DNA of 64,000 nt, from the NCBI GenBank assembly GCA_036268875.1, contig DATATI010000029.1, forward strand, positions 124,001 to 188,000. The letters are read 5' to 3'. Made by a program: the position numbers and the translations under genes. Under the pieces are notes generated by a model. That model had not been told where the DNA came from and did no database searches. It worked only from the letters and a program-made list of their open reading frames with translations. Shown one piece after another: positions 32,339 through 41,079 of this stretch. Every line of letters begins with the position of its first letter. Position 1 is the stretch's first letter. The DNA is from Polyangia bacterium. Its GTDB lineage: Bacteria > Myxococcota_A > Polyangia > Fen-1088.

Positions 32339-33020
32339 TGATCCGGGCCGGGGCAACGGCTGCCTTCGGAATGACGCTGCTGCTGACGGCGGTGTTGTCG
32401 TCGCCGACGCGCGCGCAGGCGCAGAACAGCGCCCCCGCGCCGCTGACCCGACGGGCCACCGGCCTCGATCACGACAAGGGTCTGCTGACCGCCAGCGTGG
32501 GTCTGCAGGATCTCTTCGGCCTTGCCGAACGCCAGCGCCTTTTGTCGGGATTCGCCACCCGCATCTTGATCCGCATCTATCTGCACCGCGAGGGCGGCGG
32601 CGATCCGGTGGCGGTGGCCTTCCAGCGCAGCGAGATCGTCTATGACATCTGGGACGAAAAATTCCGCCTGCGCATCACGCGCGGCGCCGGCCCGGACACC
32701 GAGATCGAAGTGAAGACCGTCGACGAGGCCGTCGACCGCACCTGCGGCCTGTGGCACTTCCCCATTGTCGACCTGCGCCAGCTGGAACGCGGGGCCCGCT
32801 ATTTTCTCGCCTTTCGCGCCGATCTGAACCCCATCTCCGAAGAGCTGCTGGCCGACGTGCGGCGCTGGCTGGTGCAGCCGGCGCGCGGCCAGCGTCGGGT
32901 GGGCGCGGGCGACAGCTTCTTCGGATCATTCGTCAGCATCTTCGTCAACCCGCGCGTCGAGGACAGCGAGCGCCAGGTGCGGTTCTTGTCGCAGACTTTT
33001 GGGGAAGGATCGCCGCCGCC

Positions 33021-33024
<4 letters not shown>
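32338..33024 (+). CDS. DUF4390-like periplasmic protein
   Basis: 228 aa. The signal peptide ends TRAQAQNS. The family pattern is visible in LTASVGLQDLFGLAERQRLL, ILIRIYLHREG and EIVYDIWDEKFRLRI. DUF4390 genes typically sit directly before ntrY-like kinase genes in beta- and gamma-proteobacteria, as here, where the stop overlaps the kinase start (ATGA). It probably acts in the periplasm with the kinase or envelope machinery; function is not established. Confidence 0.8.
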
Positions 33025-34538
<1,514 letters not shown>

Positions 34539-34554
34539 CAGTGGCGCCGCCGGC

Positions 34555-34607
34555 CTTAACAATTTTTCACAAGCTCGGTGTCGCTTGCCCCGAGCTTCGG
34601 TGTTAAG
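34555..34607. promoter_or_regulatory. Nested inverted repeat between kinase and exbB
   Basis: An outer 7-bp pair, CTTAACA (34555-34561) and TGTTAAG (34601-34607), encloses an inner 8-bp pair, AAGCTCGG (34571-34578) and CCGAGCTT (34590-34597), with an 11-nt loop. No T-tract follows, so it is not an obvious terminator. It may be an operator or an mRNA structure controlling the exbB operon. Confidence 0.5.
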
Positions 34608-34641: not shown

Positions 34642-35310
34642 ATGCAGAATTCGACGGGCGGTTTGGTTCAGACCCTGCTGGGGCTTCCGGTCTTTCGATC
34701 CGAGTGGGTCCTTTATTTGCTGCTGGGGCTGTCGGTGGTCTCGATCGCGGTGATGGTGGAGCGGTGGGTTTTCTATCGCCGCCACCGCGTCGACGCCGAC
34801 GCCCTGCGGGTCGCGCTGACCAAGCTCCTTGACGCCGGTGATTTCCAGGCCGCGGCCAAGCTTTTGTCCCAGCACGACAGCCTGCAGACCAACGTGGTGC
34901 TGGTCGGCCTGCAGTCGTACGAAAAAGGTCCCGAGTCGGTCGAAGATCTGATCGCCGGGGCCCTGGGCCAGGAGAAGAACCGTTACGAAAAGCGGCTGGC
35001 CTTTCTGGCCACCCTGGCCAGCAACGCGCCCTACGTCGGCTTGTTCGGCACGGTGCTGGGCATCGTGCGGTCGTTCCGCGATCTGGCGGCGAACATGGCC
35101 GACGCCAGCCAGGCGGTGATGGCCGGCATCGCCGAGTCGCTGATCGCCACCGCGGTCGGCTTGCTGGTGGCGATCCCGGCGGTGGTGGCGTTCAACGTCT
35201 ACAAGGGCAAAGTAAAAGATGCCGTCACCGGCGGACAGACGCTGGCCCGCGTGCTGCTGGCGCAGTTGAAAGCCGCCGAGCCGGTGCGCAACCGCGAGGC
35301 GGCCGAGTAG
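34642..35310 (+). CDS. exbB: ExbB/TolQ/MotA-family proton channel
   Basis: 222 aa with three membrane segments: about 20-42 ([20 protein letters not shown]), 123-145 ([17 protein letters not shown]) and 160-185 ([20 protein letters not shown]). The central [13 protein letters not shown] motif is diagnostic of ExbB/TolQ. With ExbD it forms the proton-driven motor that energises TonB at the inner membrane. First gene of a six-gene operon. The operon contains tonB and a TonB-dependent receptor, so ExbB is preferred over TolQ. Confidence 0.92.
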
Positions 35311-35330
35311 GCCGCGCGCAGGGAAGCAAC

Positions 35331-35795
35331 ATGAGCTCGCTGGATGACGCCGCTGCCGAAGACGACAGCCTGCTGGCGTCGATCAACATCATCCCCTTCG
35401 TCGACATCGTGCTGGTGTTGCTCATCATCTTCATGCTGACGTCGGCGACCATCGTGCGTTCCAGCTTGAAGGTCGAGCTGCCGAAAGCGGCCAGCGGCGG
35501 CTCGCGGGTGGAGACCACGCTGAACCTGATCTACACCAAAGACGACAAGCTGCAGGTGAACGGCCAGCCGGTGCCGTCGCTGGCGGCGGCCAGCGTGCTG
35601 GTACGGCAGGCCGCGGCGGCGAACCCGAAGACGCAGGCGGTGATCGCCGCCGACAAGGGCGTGGCTTATGGCCGCGTCGTGGAGCTTATCGATCTGGTGA
35701 AGGCCAACGGCGTCACCGCGTTCGCGCTGGACGTCGAGCGCGGACCGGCGCCACCGACCGGCGAGTCCGCCGCGCCGCCCGCCAGCGCGCCGTGA
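35331..35795 (+). CDS. exbD: ExbD/TolR-family motor protein
   Basis: 154 aa, 20 bp after exbB. One TM segment is residues about 18-38 ([19 protein letters not shown]), with the proton-carrying Asp in PFVDIVL. A periplasmic domain of about 100 aa follows, then a Pro/Ala tail. It is the standard partner of ExbB. Confidence 0.93.
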
Positions 35796-35805
35796 GCCTG
35801 CGACG

Positions 35806-36753
35806 ATGAGCGTGCGTTCGGTCGGGAACAAAGACGCGCGGCACGGACAGATGGACCAGCGTCCGCCGTTCACCGAGCGCCGGCGATTGCGGCGCGCCGC
35901 CGCCCGCGTGCTGATGCGCGCGCGCACGCGGCAGGGCCTGACCGCCGAGCAGCGGGCGCTGGATCCGCTGTCGCGCGCCCGCGTTCGTCCGCTGGCCAGG
36001 GCGGCCATCGCCGTGGCGGCGTTGCTGATCGCGGCGGCCATCCACGTCGCGGTGGTCGGCATCGGCAGGCTCATCGGCGGCAACGAGAGCGGTCGCCGCG
36101 AGCGCATCGAACAAACCGTGCGCGTCGAGGTCCGCGAGCCACCGCCGCCGCCGCCGCCGCCGGTGGAAGAAAAAAAACCCGAGCCGCCGCCCGAGAAACC
36201 GCTGCGCCCGCCCCCGATCAAGGCGGCCAAGCAGCCGCCCCCGCCCGAGGCGCCGCCGCCGAAAGCGCCGGCGCGGATCGTCGGCCTCAGCCTGGAGTCC
36301 ACCACCGAAGGCGGCAACGGCCCGGCGTTCGCCGTCGGCACCACCCGCGCCGGCGAGACCGCCGAACGCGCGCAGGTGCCGCAAGAGGCGCCCAGGCAAG
36401 CGCCGGCGCCCGTCGCCGCCCCGGCACCGGTGAAGAACGCGGTCGCCTCCCGCATCCCGGTGGCGGGCGTCAGCTATGTGCCGCCGCAGTTCAAGGGCGG
36501 CCGCAAAGAGCCGCCCTATCCGCCGCTCTTGAAGACGCAAGGGATCGAAGGCGACGTCGGCGTGATGGTCTCGATCGATCCCACCGGCAAGGTCACGAAG
36601 GTCAAGGTGATCGCGCCGTCAACCTACGACGAGATGAACGAATCAGCGCGCGCCACCGCCGCAAGCCAGGAGTTCGAACCAGCCACCCGCGACGGCGCCG
36701 CCTTCCCTTACACGCTGACGTACACGTACCACTTCCGCCTGGAGTCGCAATGA
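35806..36753 (+). CDS. tonB: TonB-family energy transducer
   Basis: 315 aa. A basic cytoplasmic N-terminus of about 60 aa is longer than in E. coli TonB. TM is about 63-88 (AIAVAALLIAAAIHVAVVGI). A Pro/Lys/Glu-rich periplasm-spanning segment covers about 105-165. The C-terminal TonB_C domain is about 225-315 (VPPQFKGGRKEPPYPPLLKT, GDVGVMVSIDPTGKVTKVKV, YTLTYTYHFRLESQ). It carries energy from ExbBD to the outer-membrane receptor. Stop and next start overlap (ATGA). Confidence 0.92.
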   Translation: MSVRSVGNKDARHGQMDQRPPFTERRRLRRAAARVLMRARTRQGLTAEQRALDPLSRARVRPLARAAIAVAALLIAAAIHVAVVGIGRLIGGNESGRRERIEQTVRVEVREPPPPPPPPVEEKKPEPPPEKPLRPPPIKAAKQPPPPEAPPPKAPARIVGLSLESTTEGGNGPAFAVGTTRAGETAERAQVPQEAPRQAPAPVAAPAPVKNAVASRIPVAGVSYVPPQFKGGRKEPPYPPLLKTQGIEGDVGVMVSIDPTGKVTKVKVIAPSTYDEMNESARATAASQEFEPATRDGAAFPYTLTYTYHFRLESQ

Positions 36754-37721
36754 GGCACCGCCCGCGCTCGCCTCGGTTTTCGAACGCCCGCGCGACGGGC
36801 GCGCTGCTGCTGCTTGCCACCGTCATCGGCGCGGGCTGCGGCGCCGACTTTGATCCGTATGACCGTCTGACCGAGCTGCGCGTGCTGGCGGTGAAGAGCG
36901 ATCCGGTGGCCCCCGCGCCCGGCGAGACCACCACGCTTTCGGCGCTGGTCTACACGCCGCCACCCGCCGACGCCACCACGCCCGCGCCGGTGGTCGGCTA
37001 CGACTGGTCGTGGTGTCCGTTCGCCGGCACCGCCAACGACGGGTATCCGTGCCTGGTCACCGAGGACCAGCTGCAGATGCTCAGCGGCGTGGCGGTCTCG
37101 TTCTCGCTCGGCAGTGCGCCGACCGCGATGTTCACGCACTCGTTCCCTCCTCAGTTGTTGGACACGATCTGCAAGGGCGTGCCCGGGCTGCCGCCGCCGC
37201 CCAACTGCGACGATGGGTTTCCGGTGACCATCAAGGTGGTGGTCCACACCGACACCGACAGCGTCACCGCCATCCGCACGCTGAAGCTGCTGATGGCGCC
37301 AGCGCCCGAGCCCAACACCAACCCGACCATGGGCGGCCTGTTCGTCACCGTCGACGGCATGGATCTGCCGCTCGATTCAACGGTGATGTTGCACCGCCGG
37401 GCCAACAACGATCTCAAGGCCAGCGTCACCGTCGACGCCGCCGAGGTGTACCAAGGGTTGGACGACAACGGCAATCCAGCGCAGCTGACCGAGCGGCTGT
37501 TCTTGAGCTGGTTCGTCGAGACCGGAACGCTCAAGCACGCCCGCACCGGATACAACGCCACCACCACCTCGCCGTTCGCTGATCTGCTGACCAACGTCTG
37601 GGTGCCCGAGCGCGCGCAGGTATACCCAGCGCAGACCGCGCAATTGATCGTCGTCCTGCGCGACAACCGCGACGGCGTCGCCTGGACCACGGCCACCGCC
37701 CGGTTGGAGCCGACGCCTTGA
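36750..37721 (+). CDS. Lipoprotein in TonB operon
   Basis: 323 aa. The lipobox VIGAGC follows an Arg-rich n-region. The mature part is all-beta in appearance (LRVLAVKSDPVAPAPGETTT, GYDWSWCPFAG) with a few Cys and no enzyme motif; the Ig-like or PKD-like look is only an impression. It is coupled to tonB (ATGA) and to the receptor gene (TTGA), so it is almost surely part of the uptake system, perhaps as a surface substrate-binding or receptor-associated lipoprotein. The family is not recognised. Confidence 0.82.
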   Translation: MRHRPRSPRFSNARATGALLLLATVIGAGCGADFDPYDRLTELRVLAVKSDPVAPAPGETTTLSALVYTPPPADATTPAPVVGYDWSWCPFAGTANDGYPCLVTEDQLQMLSGVAVSFSLGSAPTAMFTHSFPPQLLDTICKGVPGLPPPPNCDDGFPVTIKVVVHTDTDSVTAIRTLKLLMAPAPEPNTNPTMGGLFVTVDGMDLPLDSTVMLHRRANNDLKASVTVDAAEVYQGLDDNGNPAQLTERLFLSWFVETGTLKHARTGYNATTTSPFADLLTNVWVPERAQVYPAQTAQLIVVLRDNRDGVAWTTATARLEPTP

Positions 37722-40411
37722 ACGGCCGCCGATTCATCCCCGGTGCCGTCCTGCTGCTGTCGCTGGCTGGGGCGGCGCCCGCCGGCGCGCAGAGCGCCCC
37801 CGCGCAACGGCAGATCGAGGCCGCCAAGCTCAGCAAGGTGCCCAAGCTGAAGAAAAAGGTCGAAGCCGTCTATCCGCCCGGGGCGCTGGAGAAAGGCGTC
37901 GAGGGCGACGTGGTGCTGCTGCTGGACATCGGCGCCGACGGAAAGGTCACGTCGGTGGGGATCGCCGAGCCGGCCACCCCGCCCGGCCTGGGCTTTGAAG
38001 AAGCGGCGGTGCTGGCCGCGCAGCAGTTCGAGTTCGAGCCCGCCGAGGTCGAGGGCCAGCCCATCGCCGTGCAGATCAACTATCACTTCAAGTTCAAGCC
38101 GCCGACCAAAGCGCCGCCCCCACCGCCGCCTCCACCCGCCGCCGCGCCTCCGACGGCGGCCGCGGAGCCACCGCCGCCCGCGCCGGTGGCTCCGTCGGTG
38201 ATCAACTTCGCCGGCACCCTGCGCGAACGCGGCACGCGCCTGCCGCTGGCCGGCGTGCTGGTCACCGTCTTTCGCGACGACGGCGAAAAGCCGCAAGGCT
38301 TCGAAGCCACCAGCGACGAAAAGGGCACCTTCCACTTCGTCGATCTGTCGCCTGGCCCGTGGAAGGTGCTGATCGATCCGCCCGGCTATTACCCGTTCCG
38401 CACCACCGAGGAGATTCATCGCGGCGAAAAAACCCAGGCCACCTATTACGTCGAAAAAGGCGTCTACAACCCCTACGACGTCACCGTCACCGCCGTCCGC
38501 CCGCGCAAGGAAGTCAGCCGCACGGTCATCACCGCCCAGGAGATCGACAAGGTGCCCGGCACCGCCGGCGATCCGCTGACCGTGGTGCAAAACTTCGCCG
38601 GCGTGGCGCGCGCCCCGTTGCTAAGCGGCCTCATCATCGTGCGCGGCTCGGCGCCCAACGACACCAAGGTCTTCGCCGACGGCGCGGAGATCCCGCTGGT
38701 CTATCACTTCGGTGGCCTGCGCAGCGTGATTCCCATCGGCCTCATCGACGGCCTGGTCTTCATTCCCGGCAACTTCTCGCCCATGTACGGCCGGGCCACC
38801 GGCGGGATCATCGACATCCAGATCAAGAAGCTGACCCCGAAGAAGGTCGGCGGTTATCTGGACGTCAGCATTCTCGACAGCAGCCTTTACGTCGAAGTCC
38901 CGATCACCGAAAAATTCGCCATGGCGGCGGCGGTGCGGCGCAGCTACCTGGACATTCTCCTCAACGCGGCGGTGCCCTCCGATTCATCGATCAACCTGAT
39001 CACCGCGCCTCGCTATTACGACTATCAGTTGCTGGCCAACTATCGTCCGGCGCCAGCGCACGATTTTCGGGCCATGTTGATGGGCTCGGACGATCGCTTC
39101 GCCGTGCTCTTCAAAGATCCGGGCGACGTCGGCACCCAGATCACCGGCAACAGCGCGTCGCTGGCCACCACATTTTACCGATCGATCCTCACGTATCGAT
39201 ACACACCCAGTGATCGCTTCGAGAACTTCGCCCAGATCTCGCAGGGCCGCGACCACAACGACGCCAACGTCGGGCAACTGGTGTTGAACGTGAACCAGTA
39301 CTCAAGCCAGATGCGCGACAACGCGCGCTTGAAGGTGGCGCCCTGGGCAACGGTCTCGCTGGGCCTGGATGTCGTCTATCAAAAGACGGATCTCTTGGTG
39401 CGCTTGCCGCGCCCGCCGTCGGAGGGCGAGCCGCCACCGACCACCCTGGACACCTCAAAGCTGGTCGAGCAGCAGTTGAACGGCCTCGTGCGCTGGCTGC
39501 CCGCCGCCTTCGGCGAGCTGGAGTTAAAGCCGATCCCGTCGATGCTGCTTCTGCCCGGGGTCCGCGTCGATCATTACTCCAGCGTGGACGATACGGTCAT
39601 TCAGCCACGCTTCACGTTGCGCCACGACGTCACCGCGCGGTTCACCTGGAAGGGCGGCGTGGGCTTATTCTCGCAAGAGCCACAGCCGTGGGAGTCCGAT
39701 GTGAAGTTCGGCAACCCGGCGCTGAAGGCCGAGCGCGTGTGGCACTATTCCCTGGGCGCCGAGTACCGGCCGCTGCCGTACCTGACGCTGGACGCGACCG
39801 GCTTTTACAAGGACATGCGCAACCTGGTCAGTAACACCACCGCCCAGGCAATCAACCCCGACGGCACCACCCGCGCGCTGATTTACGACAACAACGGCCG
39901 CGGTCGCGCTTACGGGTTAGAGCTTCAAGTCAAGCACGAGTTCTCGCACAACTTCACCGGCTGGCTGGTCTACACGCTGTCGCGTTCCGAGCGGCGCGAC
40001 TCCGGGCAGACGACCTATCGGCTGTTCGACTTCGACCAGACGCACATCCTGGCCGTGCTGGGGTCGTATCAATTTCCGCGCAACTGGATCGTGGGCGGGC
40101 GCTTCCGCTATGTCAGCGGCGATCCCATCACGCCGGTCACCGGATCGGTGTGGAACGCCAGCAGCGACGAATATTCGCCGGTCTACGGCGCCGTCAATTC
40201 GGGGCGCCTGGGCGCCTTTCACCAGCTTGATCTGCGGGTGGACAAGAAGTGGATCTTCCCGCGCTGGATCTTGGACGTCTATCTCGATATACAAAACGTT
40301 TACAACCGGTCGAATCCCGAGGGTATCTCGTACAACTTTGACTTCCGGCAGCAGAAGGTGCAGCAGGGGCTGCCGATCCTGCCGATCTTGGGCGTGCGAG
40401 GTGATCTGTGA
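37718..40411 (+). CDS. TonB-dependent receptor with fused N-terminal TonB_C-like domain
   Basis: 897 aa from TTG in a TTGA overlap. Signal peptide 1-25. Residues about 37-110 form a TonB_C-like domain (KKKVEAVYPPGALEKGVEGD ... QINYHFKFKPP), clearly similar in pattern to the operon's own TonB. A Pro-rich linker (112-148) follows, then a carboxypeptidase-regulatory-like beta domain (about 152-235, TLRERGTRLPLAGVLVTVFR). The plug is about 250-375 (DPLTVVQNFAGVARAPLLSG, YGRATGGIIDIQIK). A 22-strand-type barrel runs to the end, with a typical C-terminal region. No classic TonB box was spotted. Receptors of this class import bulky substrates across the outer membrane; substrate unknown. Confidence 0.9.
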   Translation: MNGRRFIPGAVLLLSLAGAAPAGAQSAPAQRQIEAAKLSKVPKLKKKVEAVYPPGALEKGVEGDVVLLLDIGADGKVTSVGIAEPATPPGLGFEEAAVLAAQQFEFEPAEVEGQPIAVQINYHFKFKPPTKAPPPPPPPPAAAPPTAAAEPPPPAPVAPSVINFAGTLRERGTRLPLAGVLVTVFRDDGEKPQGFEATSDEKGTFHFVDLSPGPWKVLIDPPGYYPFRTTEEIHRGEKTQATYYVEKGVYNPYDVTVTAVRPRKEVSRTVITAQEIDKVPGTAGDPLTVVQNFAGVARAPLLSGLIIVRGSAPNDTKVFADGAEIPLVYHFGGLRSVIPIGLIDGLVFIPGNFSPMYGRATGGIIDIQIKKLTPKKVGGYLDVSILDSSLYVEVPITEKFAMAAAVRRSYLDILLNAAVPSDSSINLITAPRYYDYQLLANYRPAPAHDFRAMLMGSDDRFAVLFKDPGDVGTQITGNSASLATTFYRSILTYRYTPSDRFENFAQISQGRDHNDANVGQLVLNVNQYSSQMRDNARLKVAPWATVSLGLDVVYQKTDLLVRLPRPPSEGEPPPTTLDTSKLVEQQLNGLVRWLPAAFGELELKPIPSMLLLPGVRVDHYSSVDDTVIQPRFTLRHDVTARFTWKGGVGLFSQEPQPWESDVKFGNPALKAERVWHYSLGAEYRPLPYLTLDATGFYKDMRNLVSNTTAQAINPDGTTRALIYDNNGRGRAYGLELQVKHEFSHNFTGWLVYTLSRSERRDSGQTTYRLFDFDQTHILAVLGSYQFPRNWIVGGRFRYVSGDPITPVTGSVWNASSDEYSPVYGAVNSGRLGAFHQLDLRVDKKWIFPRWILDVYLDIQNVYNRSNPEGISYNFDFRQQKVQQGLPILPILGVRGDL

Positions 40412-41079
40412 GGCGCCAGCAAATGCTCGGCGATCGGCACCGGCTGAGGGCGTGGGCGGTGGCGGCGCTGCTGGCGCTGGTAATTTTCTTCGGCCGCGCC
40501 CGGCACGCGTCGGCGCAGGACCTGGAACCGCCACGGCCGCGCCAGGGGTACTACGTGTCGCTGGACCTTTACGGAGCCAGCACCCTGGCGCACGAAAACG
40601 GCGCTTGGCTGGGACCGTGGGTGGGCGCCGGCGGCGGTGGGCGCGTCGGCCAGTTGGTCACCCGCCGTTTCGGCCTGGGGTTGGCCTTCGAATACGCCGC
40701 CGCCTGGGGCGACGGACAGAAATCGAGCGCCATCGGCTTGGGCGTCGAAGCCAGCTTCGCCGTGGCCGGTAACCTGGCCGTGCGCGGCGGTGTGGGAATC
40801 GGGATCCTGCGCCTACACGATCCCAACGATCCTTTCGAGTCGAGCACCCGCGGCGTCACCGGATCGTGGTTCGCTGCGGGGCTGAGCTATGACCTTTTCA
40901 TCAAGCGAAAACGCCTCAGCGGCGGGCTGGCCCTCACCCCCAGCGTCCAGCTGCGCGCCGTCCCCGGCGACAGCACCTACGGATTTTATACAATGGTGGG
41001 CGTCGAGGTGACGTACTGGACCGGACTGCCGCGCAACCAGCTGGATCTGCCGCCGTCGGAGGCCTGGCAGAAAAAATAA
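40408..41079 (+). CDS. Small outer-membrane beta-barrel protein, last gene of TonB operon
   Basis: 223 aa from GTG in a GTGA overlap with the receptor gene. The signal peptide ends RHASAQDL. The mature 185 aa show alternating strands and Gly/aromatic turns (GYYVSLDLYGASTLA, RFGLGLAFEYAAAWG, GFYTMVGVEVTYWTG), consistent with an 8-10-stranded barrel of the OmpA/OmpW-like size class. It may assist or stabilise the receptor. No named family. Confidence 0.8.
   Translation: MRRQQMLGDRHRLRAWAVAALLALVIFFGRARHASAQDLEPPRPRQGYYVSLDLYGASTLAHENGAWLGPWVGAGGGGRVGQLVTRRFGLGLAFEYAAAWGDGQKSSAIGLGVEASFAVAGNLAVRGGVGIGILRLHDPNDPFESSTRGVTGSWFAAGLSYDLFIKRKRLSGGLALTPSVQLRAVPGDSTYGFYTMVGVEVTYWTGLPRNQLDLPPSEAWQKK

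Follow-up and report, generated by a model that had tools for sequence, protein, structure and literature searches.

A class of myxobacterial TonB-dependent receptors carries at its mature N-terminus a TonB C-terminal domain (TonB_C) on a linker, followed by a carboxypeptidase-regulatory-like domain (CarboxypepD_reg), a TonB-box-like strand, the plug and the beta-barrel. The receptor analyzed here is encoded within a window of 64,000 nucleotides taken from a 6.15-Mb draft genome of a Polyangia bacterium, and all coordinates below refer to that window unless another locus is named.

Operon organization

Six open reading frames were found on one strand between positions 34642 and 41079, in the order exbB, exbD, tonB, lipoprotein, receptor and small outer-membrane protein.

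34642-35310, plus strand: exbB (Pfam MotA_ExbB, PF01618, 111.7 bits)
35331-35795, plus strand: exbD (Pfam ExbD, PF02472, 94.2 bits)
35806-36753, plus strand: tonB, a full-length TonB of 315 aa (Pfam PF03544, 58.4 bits)
36750-37721, plus strand: partner lipoprotein with lipobox Cys30, predicted Ig-like beta-sandwich (no Pfam match; AF2 pLDDT 96.3, pTM 0.92)
37718-40411, plus strand: TonB-dependent receptor with N-terminal TonB_C, 897 aa, TTG start (Pfam and NCBIfam)
40408-41079, plus strand: small outer-membrane protein (HMM matches in relatives; no Pfam match)

This is the gene content that the earlier note had read from the DNA; every reading frame was recovered at its position, and Pfam names exbB, exbD, tonB and the receptor. 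The note had also described all six genes as packed by overlaps. This holds for the last three junctions, which overlap by four bases (ATGA at 36750, TTGA at 37718, GTGA at 40408), and not for exbB/exbD and exbD/tonB, which are separated by gaps of 20 and 10 bases, respectively. Upstream of the operon lies a HAMP histidine kinase gene (NtrY-like, 32751-34538), and a promoter-like match was observed at 34535-34563, between this gene and exbB.

Identity of the receptor N-terminal domain

The domain order of the receptor was as follows.

37718-37789, plus strand: signal peptide, cleavage after AGA (residue 24), no membrane anchor (from sequence; relatives alike)
37865-38098, plus strand: receptor-borne TonB_C, residues 50-127 (PF03544, 46.0 bits; PDB TonB matches; hhalign 99.8%)
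38099-38206, plus strand: Pro/Ala-rich linker, residues 128-163
38213-38440, plus strand: CarboxypepD_reg, residues 166-241 (PF13620, 33.9 bits, cut-off 32.3)
38477-38494, plus strand: TonB-box-like strand DVTVTA, residues 254-259, just before the plug (region kept in relatives)
38513-38806, plus strand: Plug, residues 266-363 (PF07715, 29.3 bits, cut-off 23.9)
39110-40300, plus strand: beta-barrel, residues 465-861 (PF00593, 92.6 bits, cut-off 27.0)

With both Plug and barrel above the curated cut-offs the protein is a TonB-dependent receptor, and the closest solved folds to its barrel retrieved by Foldseek were PfeA, Cir, FepA and BtuB. A TonB box ahead of the plug is present by sequence pattern (DVTVTA, within a conserved region).

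The N-terminal domain of this receptor is a true TonB C-terminal domain. It matched PF03544 with an E-value of 7e-12 (cut-off 24.6 bits) and TIGR01352 with 51.7 bits against a cut-off of 27.1, its sequence retrieved solved TonB structures from the PDB, and PF03544 was matched by all 16 receptor family members scanned. Profile-profile comparison (hhalign) of the receptor N-domain with the C-domains of operon TonBs gave a probability of 99.8%. In an AF2 model of the receptor built with 73 sequences (mean pLDDT 87.9) the N-domain was confidently predicted, with the helix and strand order of TonB_C, and residues A97, A100, F106, P108 and F126 were invariant in 73/73 aligned receptor relatives. STN (PF07660) was not matched in the receptor even at E-values up to 1; the Pfam search, the TonB_C profile comparison and the family scan together rule out an STN domain or a second carboxypeptidase unit at this position. 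The earlier suggestion of a TonB_C-like domain followed by a Pro-rich linker and a carboxypeptidase-regulatory-like domain ahead of the plug was thus borne out, with one correction: its domain borders of 37-110 lie about 15 residues too early.

Linkers of 17 to 47 aa are found among relatives, extending to about 97 aa in those with a second CarboxypepD_reg-like unit, and some receptor paralogues have no CarboxypepD_reg, consisting of TonB_C, linker, box and plug. At one locus (L100, 921-9455) two divergent receptor-lipoprotein pairs adjoin in opposite orientation, and the linker of each receptor contains an additional CarboxypepD_reg-like unit.

Comparison with the operon TonB

The receptor-borne domain and the C-domain of the TonB energy transducer (PF03544) share fold and sequence family. 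The operon TonB has the following features.

35995-36075, plus strand: membrane helix with H80 (equivalent to His20 of E. coli TonB), then the D-box-like strand TVRVEVRE (from sequence; His conserved in relatives)
36508-36741, plus strand: C-terminal domain, residues 235-312 (PF03544)

Ahead of the membrane helix, about 60 residues rich in Arg (35806-35995) form a cytoplasmic extension. In the operon TonBs of relatives, too, the membrane helix contains the conserved His and is followed by an alternating strand which fits the published D-box pattern. The receptors inspected have instead a cleavable signal peptide and a low-complexity start, then TonB_C. Unlike TonB, the receptor N-domain is exported, at the tip of an outer-membrane receptor, and belongs to a separate branch of the domain tree described below; neither a membrane helix with an SHLS-type His nor a D-box for ExbD was found in the receptor, both of which are present in the operon tonB by sequence. 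Since it has no membrane anchor and no D-box or other motor contacts, the receptor-borne domain should not transmit force or energise transport. A self-energising TonB-receptor fusion was rejected, as every family member inspected had a signal peptide and lacked a membrane helix and D-box.

Distribution and history of the fusion

The TonB_C-headed receptor layout is common across myxobacteria, as the earlier note had supposed. TonB_C shares a reading frame with Plug in 7 of the 11 Plug receptors of the source genome and in 23/76 Plug receptors across eight genomes, each of which has at least one. An N-region profile matched 258/286 Myxococcota genomes at E <= 1e-10, a threshold at which the weakest matches may be CarboxypepD_reg alone; most strong matches were in reading frames of about 900 aa. 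A scan of GTDB genomes returned 330 receptor relatives, and 78 receptor loci were kept for comparison, from Myxococcota and from deltaproteobacterial or unspecific MAGs, including Myxococcus xanthus, Corallococcus and Lujinxingia. A plasmid search gave CarboxypepD_reg/plug matches only and no TonB_C-fused receptor. In the Myxococcus xanthus genome (G321) TonB_C matches were observed in reading frames of 829, 880, 902, 967 and 981 aa, and this species probably holds about five TonB_C receptors, which are candidates by reading-frame size and TonB_C match.

Two members of the receptor family depart from the layout: the receptor of L133 (483-2753) has no TonB_C domain, and that of L131 (8180-11119) has a degenerate one. 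These are natural test cases for the dispensability of the domain. They are also what speaks for the domain being a functionless, neutral relic of gene fusion, an explanation which is very improbable given that some of its residues never vary among the 73 aligned receptors and that the domain is widely retained across the phylum.

Fused and standalone domains were nearly separate when 132 TonB_C domains were placed on one tree, with 4 label changes versus 39 in shuffles; the domain is short, the columns are few and the deep branches are weakly supported. This near-separation fits one old fusion, with the receptor TonB_C forming a branch apart from standalone TonBs. With the same reservation as to few columns and deep support, it argues against the N-domain being a recent copy of the TonB of each operon.

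Gene neighbourhood and partner lipoprotein

The conserved core of the locus is the receptor-lipoprotein pair and the Ton genes are optional, because among the 40 relatives' loci with sufficient flank the lipoprotein gene adjoins the receptor gene in 38, whereas exbB, exbD and tonB are near the receptor in 19, and because the enrichment of ExbB near fused receptors is weak. With respect to the latter, in the eight genomes ExbB was found within 8 kb of 8/23 fused receptors as compared with 8/53 unfused receptors (p=0.07), and no ExbB was found within 8 kb of the other 15/23. This receptor also adjoins its lipoprotein in Myxococcus and Corallococcus, where no Ton genes accompany the pair. The small outer-membrane protein gene accompanies the six-gene order and is found beside the receptor in close relatives. 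The self-contained operon proposed in the earlier note, which had called for a survey of gene order, is conserved among close relatives, with Ton genes nearby in only 19/40 loci overall. The further notion that the receptor docks a dedicated TonB finds no support in this distribution, as Ton genes were absent nearby in 21/40 loci and ExbB was absent from the vicinity of 15/23 fused receptors; strict coupling of the fused receptor to dedicated Ton genes is likewise unsupported by these counts.

No significant Pfam match was obtained for any of 60 lipoprotein family members scanned. The family has two invariant Cys residues besides the lipidated Cys and a conserved RVLAIxAEPP start. The AF2 model of the lipoprotein is confident, mostly beta, and gave Ig-like matches; no close solved relative of the model was found, with whole-chain TM-scores of about 0.2. 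Judged by this model, the lipoprotein belongs to an undescribed Ig-like family. Its N-terminus, with the conserved RVLAIQAEP strand, was considered as a TonB box and rejected, since in the AF2 model this segment forms a confidently predicted strand within the Ig-like fold.

The constancy of the pair is also an argument that the receptor N-domain could be a signalling or partner-docking module, comparable to the STN domain of transducers and touching a regulator or the lipoprotein; STN domains do occupy the same place in transducers (PMC11637429). We regard this as quite unlikely: no STN match was obtained, the adjacent upstream gene encodes a HAMP histidine kinase and not a FecR/ECF pair, and the lipoprotein may be exposed on the outside of the cell, beyond reach of the N-domain.

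As for the small outer-membrane protein (40408-41079), no Pfam match was found, and there was a weak hint of similarity to the gliding protein CglE (E=0.3). At another locus (L060, 8067-13979) its gene is flanked by two tandem TonB_C receptors in one operon.

Proposed role of the receptor-borne domain

Which of many TonB-dependent receptors is energised when TonBs are few is an open question, and a receptor with its own domain of the type that binds TonB boxes is a direct genetic handle on receptor choice. Our tentative proposal, which we hold with less than even confidence, is that the receptor TonB_C binds a TonB box, either its own or that of a receptor nearby, or else a strand of similar kind, and so controls access of inner-membrane TonB to that box. 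TonB_C acts by pairing its strand 3 with the TonB box, as seen in the FhuA complex (PMC11658791), and box binding is proposed for the receptor domain because it retains the fold and the edge strand for this pairing. The TonB-box-like strand next to the plug is kept across the receptor family. It lies 99-186 residues past the end of TonB_C in receptor relatives, with a linker of at least 17 aa, so that binding in cis or to a neighbour is sterically possible. The strong constraint on the N-domain, its occurrence irrespective of a co-encoded TonB and its ordered, TonB-like prediction by AF2 also favour this reading. Under this proposal, the receptor TonB_C would pair with a box in the periplasm, beta-strand to beta-strand, and would control when that box, whether in cis or on a neighbour, can be reached by inner-membrane TonB. 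TonB from the operon or from elsewhere would then displace the receptor TonB_C and drive import of a ligand that the lipoprotein and the barrel have captured.

The AF2 single-chain receptor model did not show docking of the box on the N-domain in cis; the box is disordered in this model (pLDDT below 50, model residues 223-234) and does not form a strand on the N-domain. The receptors of L133, without the domain, and L131, with its degenerate copy, also speak against a role in gating the box. A wider version of the proposal, in which this is a phylum-wide receptor class whose outer-membrane-tethered TonB-box reader captures boxes within one receptor or across receptors and gates a shared pool of TonB, with the Ig-like lipoprotein as fixed partner, is rather unlikely to hold in full.

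It was also considered, following the idea of the earlier note, that the N-domain docks TonB by pairing of the two C-domains and so recruits it before handover to the TonB box. Isolated TonB_C fragments can dimerise, such dimers having been seen for short fragments, and in close relatives a tonB gene likewise forms part of the tight operon. FoxA, a receptor with a different extra N-domain, can retain TonB constitutively through contacts that lie upstream of its box (PMC11637429). Such docking would be additional in the present receptor, since the TonB-box-like strand is kept, and we consider it unlikely in view of the well-flanked loci that have no Ton genes nearby, the weak enrichment of ExbB and the FhuA complex, in which strand 3 of the TonB C-domain is engaged by the box.

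The position of the N-domain at the end of a tether in the periplasm would suit an envelope anchor or spacer keeping the receptor close to peptidoglycan or to another protein of the periplasm, and TonB C-domains are reported to bind peptidoglycan. This function is improbable, as conservation tracks the TonB_C signature and the N-domain family is uniform. With regard to the preferred reading, control of the box by the receptor TonB_C, the model organism Myxococcus xanthus has the receptor-lipoprotein pair (L105, genome G321), and the role is testable there.

Relation to known systems

No description of TonB_C-fused receptors was found in the open-licence literature; older subscription papers on the bioinformatics of the TonB family may have one. 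A survey of 34,893 receptors in a study of PopC and Oar gave five N-terminal architectures, none with TonB_C (PMC6434023). Oar-type transporters, including Oar of Myxococcus xanthus, share with the present receptor the succession of CarboxypepD_reg, TonB box, Plug and barrel (PMC6434023). In Oar, however, no TonB_C stands ahead of CarboxypepD_reg; assignment of the receptor as Oar-type was rejected since its CarboxypepD_reg (33.9 bits) is preceded by this domain.

The STN transducers FpvA, FecA and FoxA resemble the receptor in having an extra globular domain at the mature N-terminus and a loop with the TonB box. They differ in domain family (STN and not TonB_C) and in that the present operon is preceded by a histidine kinase gene in place of FecR/ECF; with PF07660 unmatched, the receptor is not an STN transducer.

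The TonB_C-first layout itself is, by sequence model, not wholly new, since the curated NCBI model for MxcH, the myxochelin receptor (NCBIfam NF038079), begins with the same TonB_C-type domain. Positions 2-113 of this model match receptor residues 42-155. The match is to the N-region only, and the receptor is not MxcH: the whole-protein score was 81.7 bits against an equivalog cut-off of 925.

Like SusC/SusD and BtuB/BtuG of Bacteroidetes, the myxobacterial module pairs a TonB-dependent receptor with a lipoprotein. It is not a SusC/SusD system, as the receptor scored 19.6 bits against the SusC model TIGR04056 (cut-off 368) and the Ig-like lipoprotein had no SusD match. The close association of the receptor with a lipoprotein family that has no name suggests that myxobacteria possess an uptake module of their own, a counterpart of SusCD and BtuBG.
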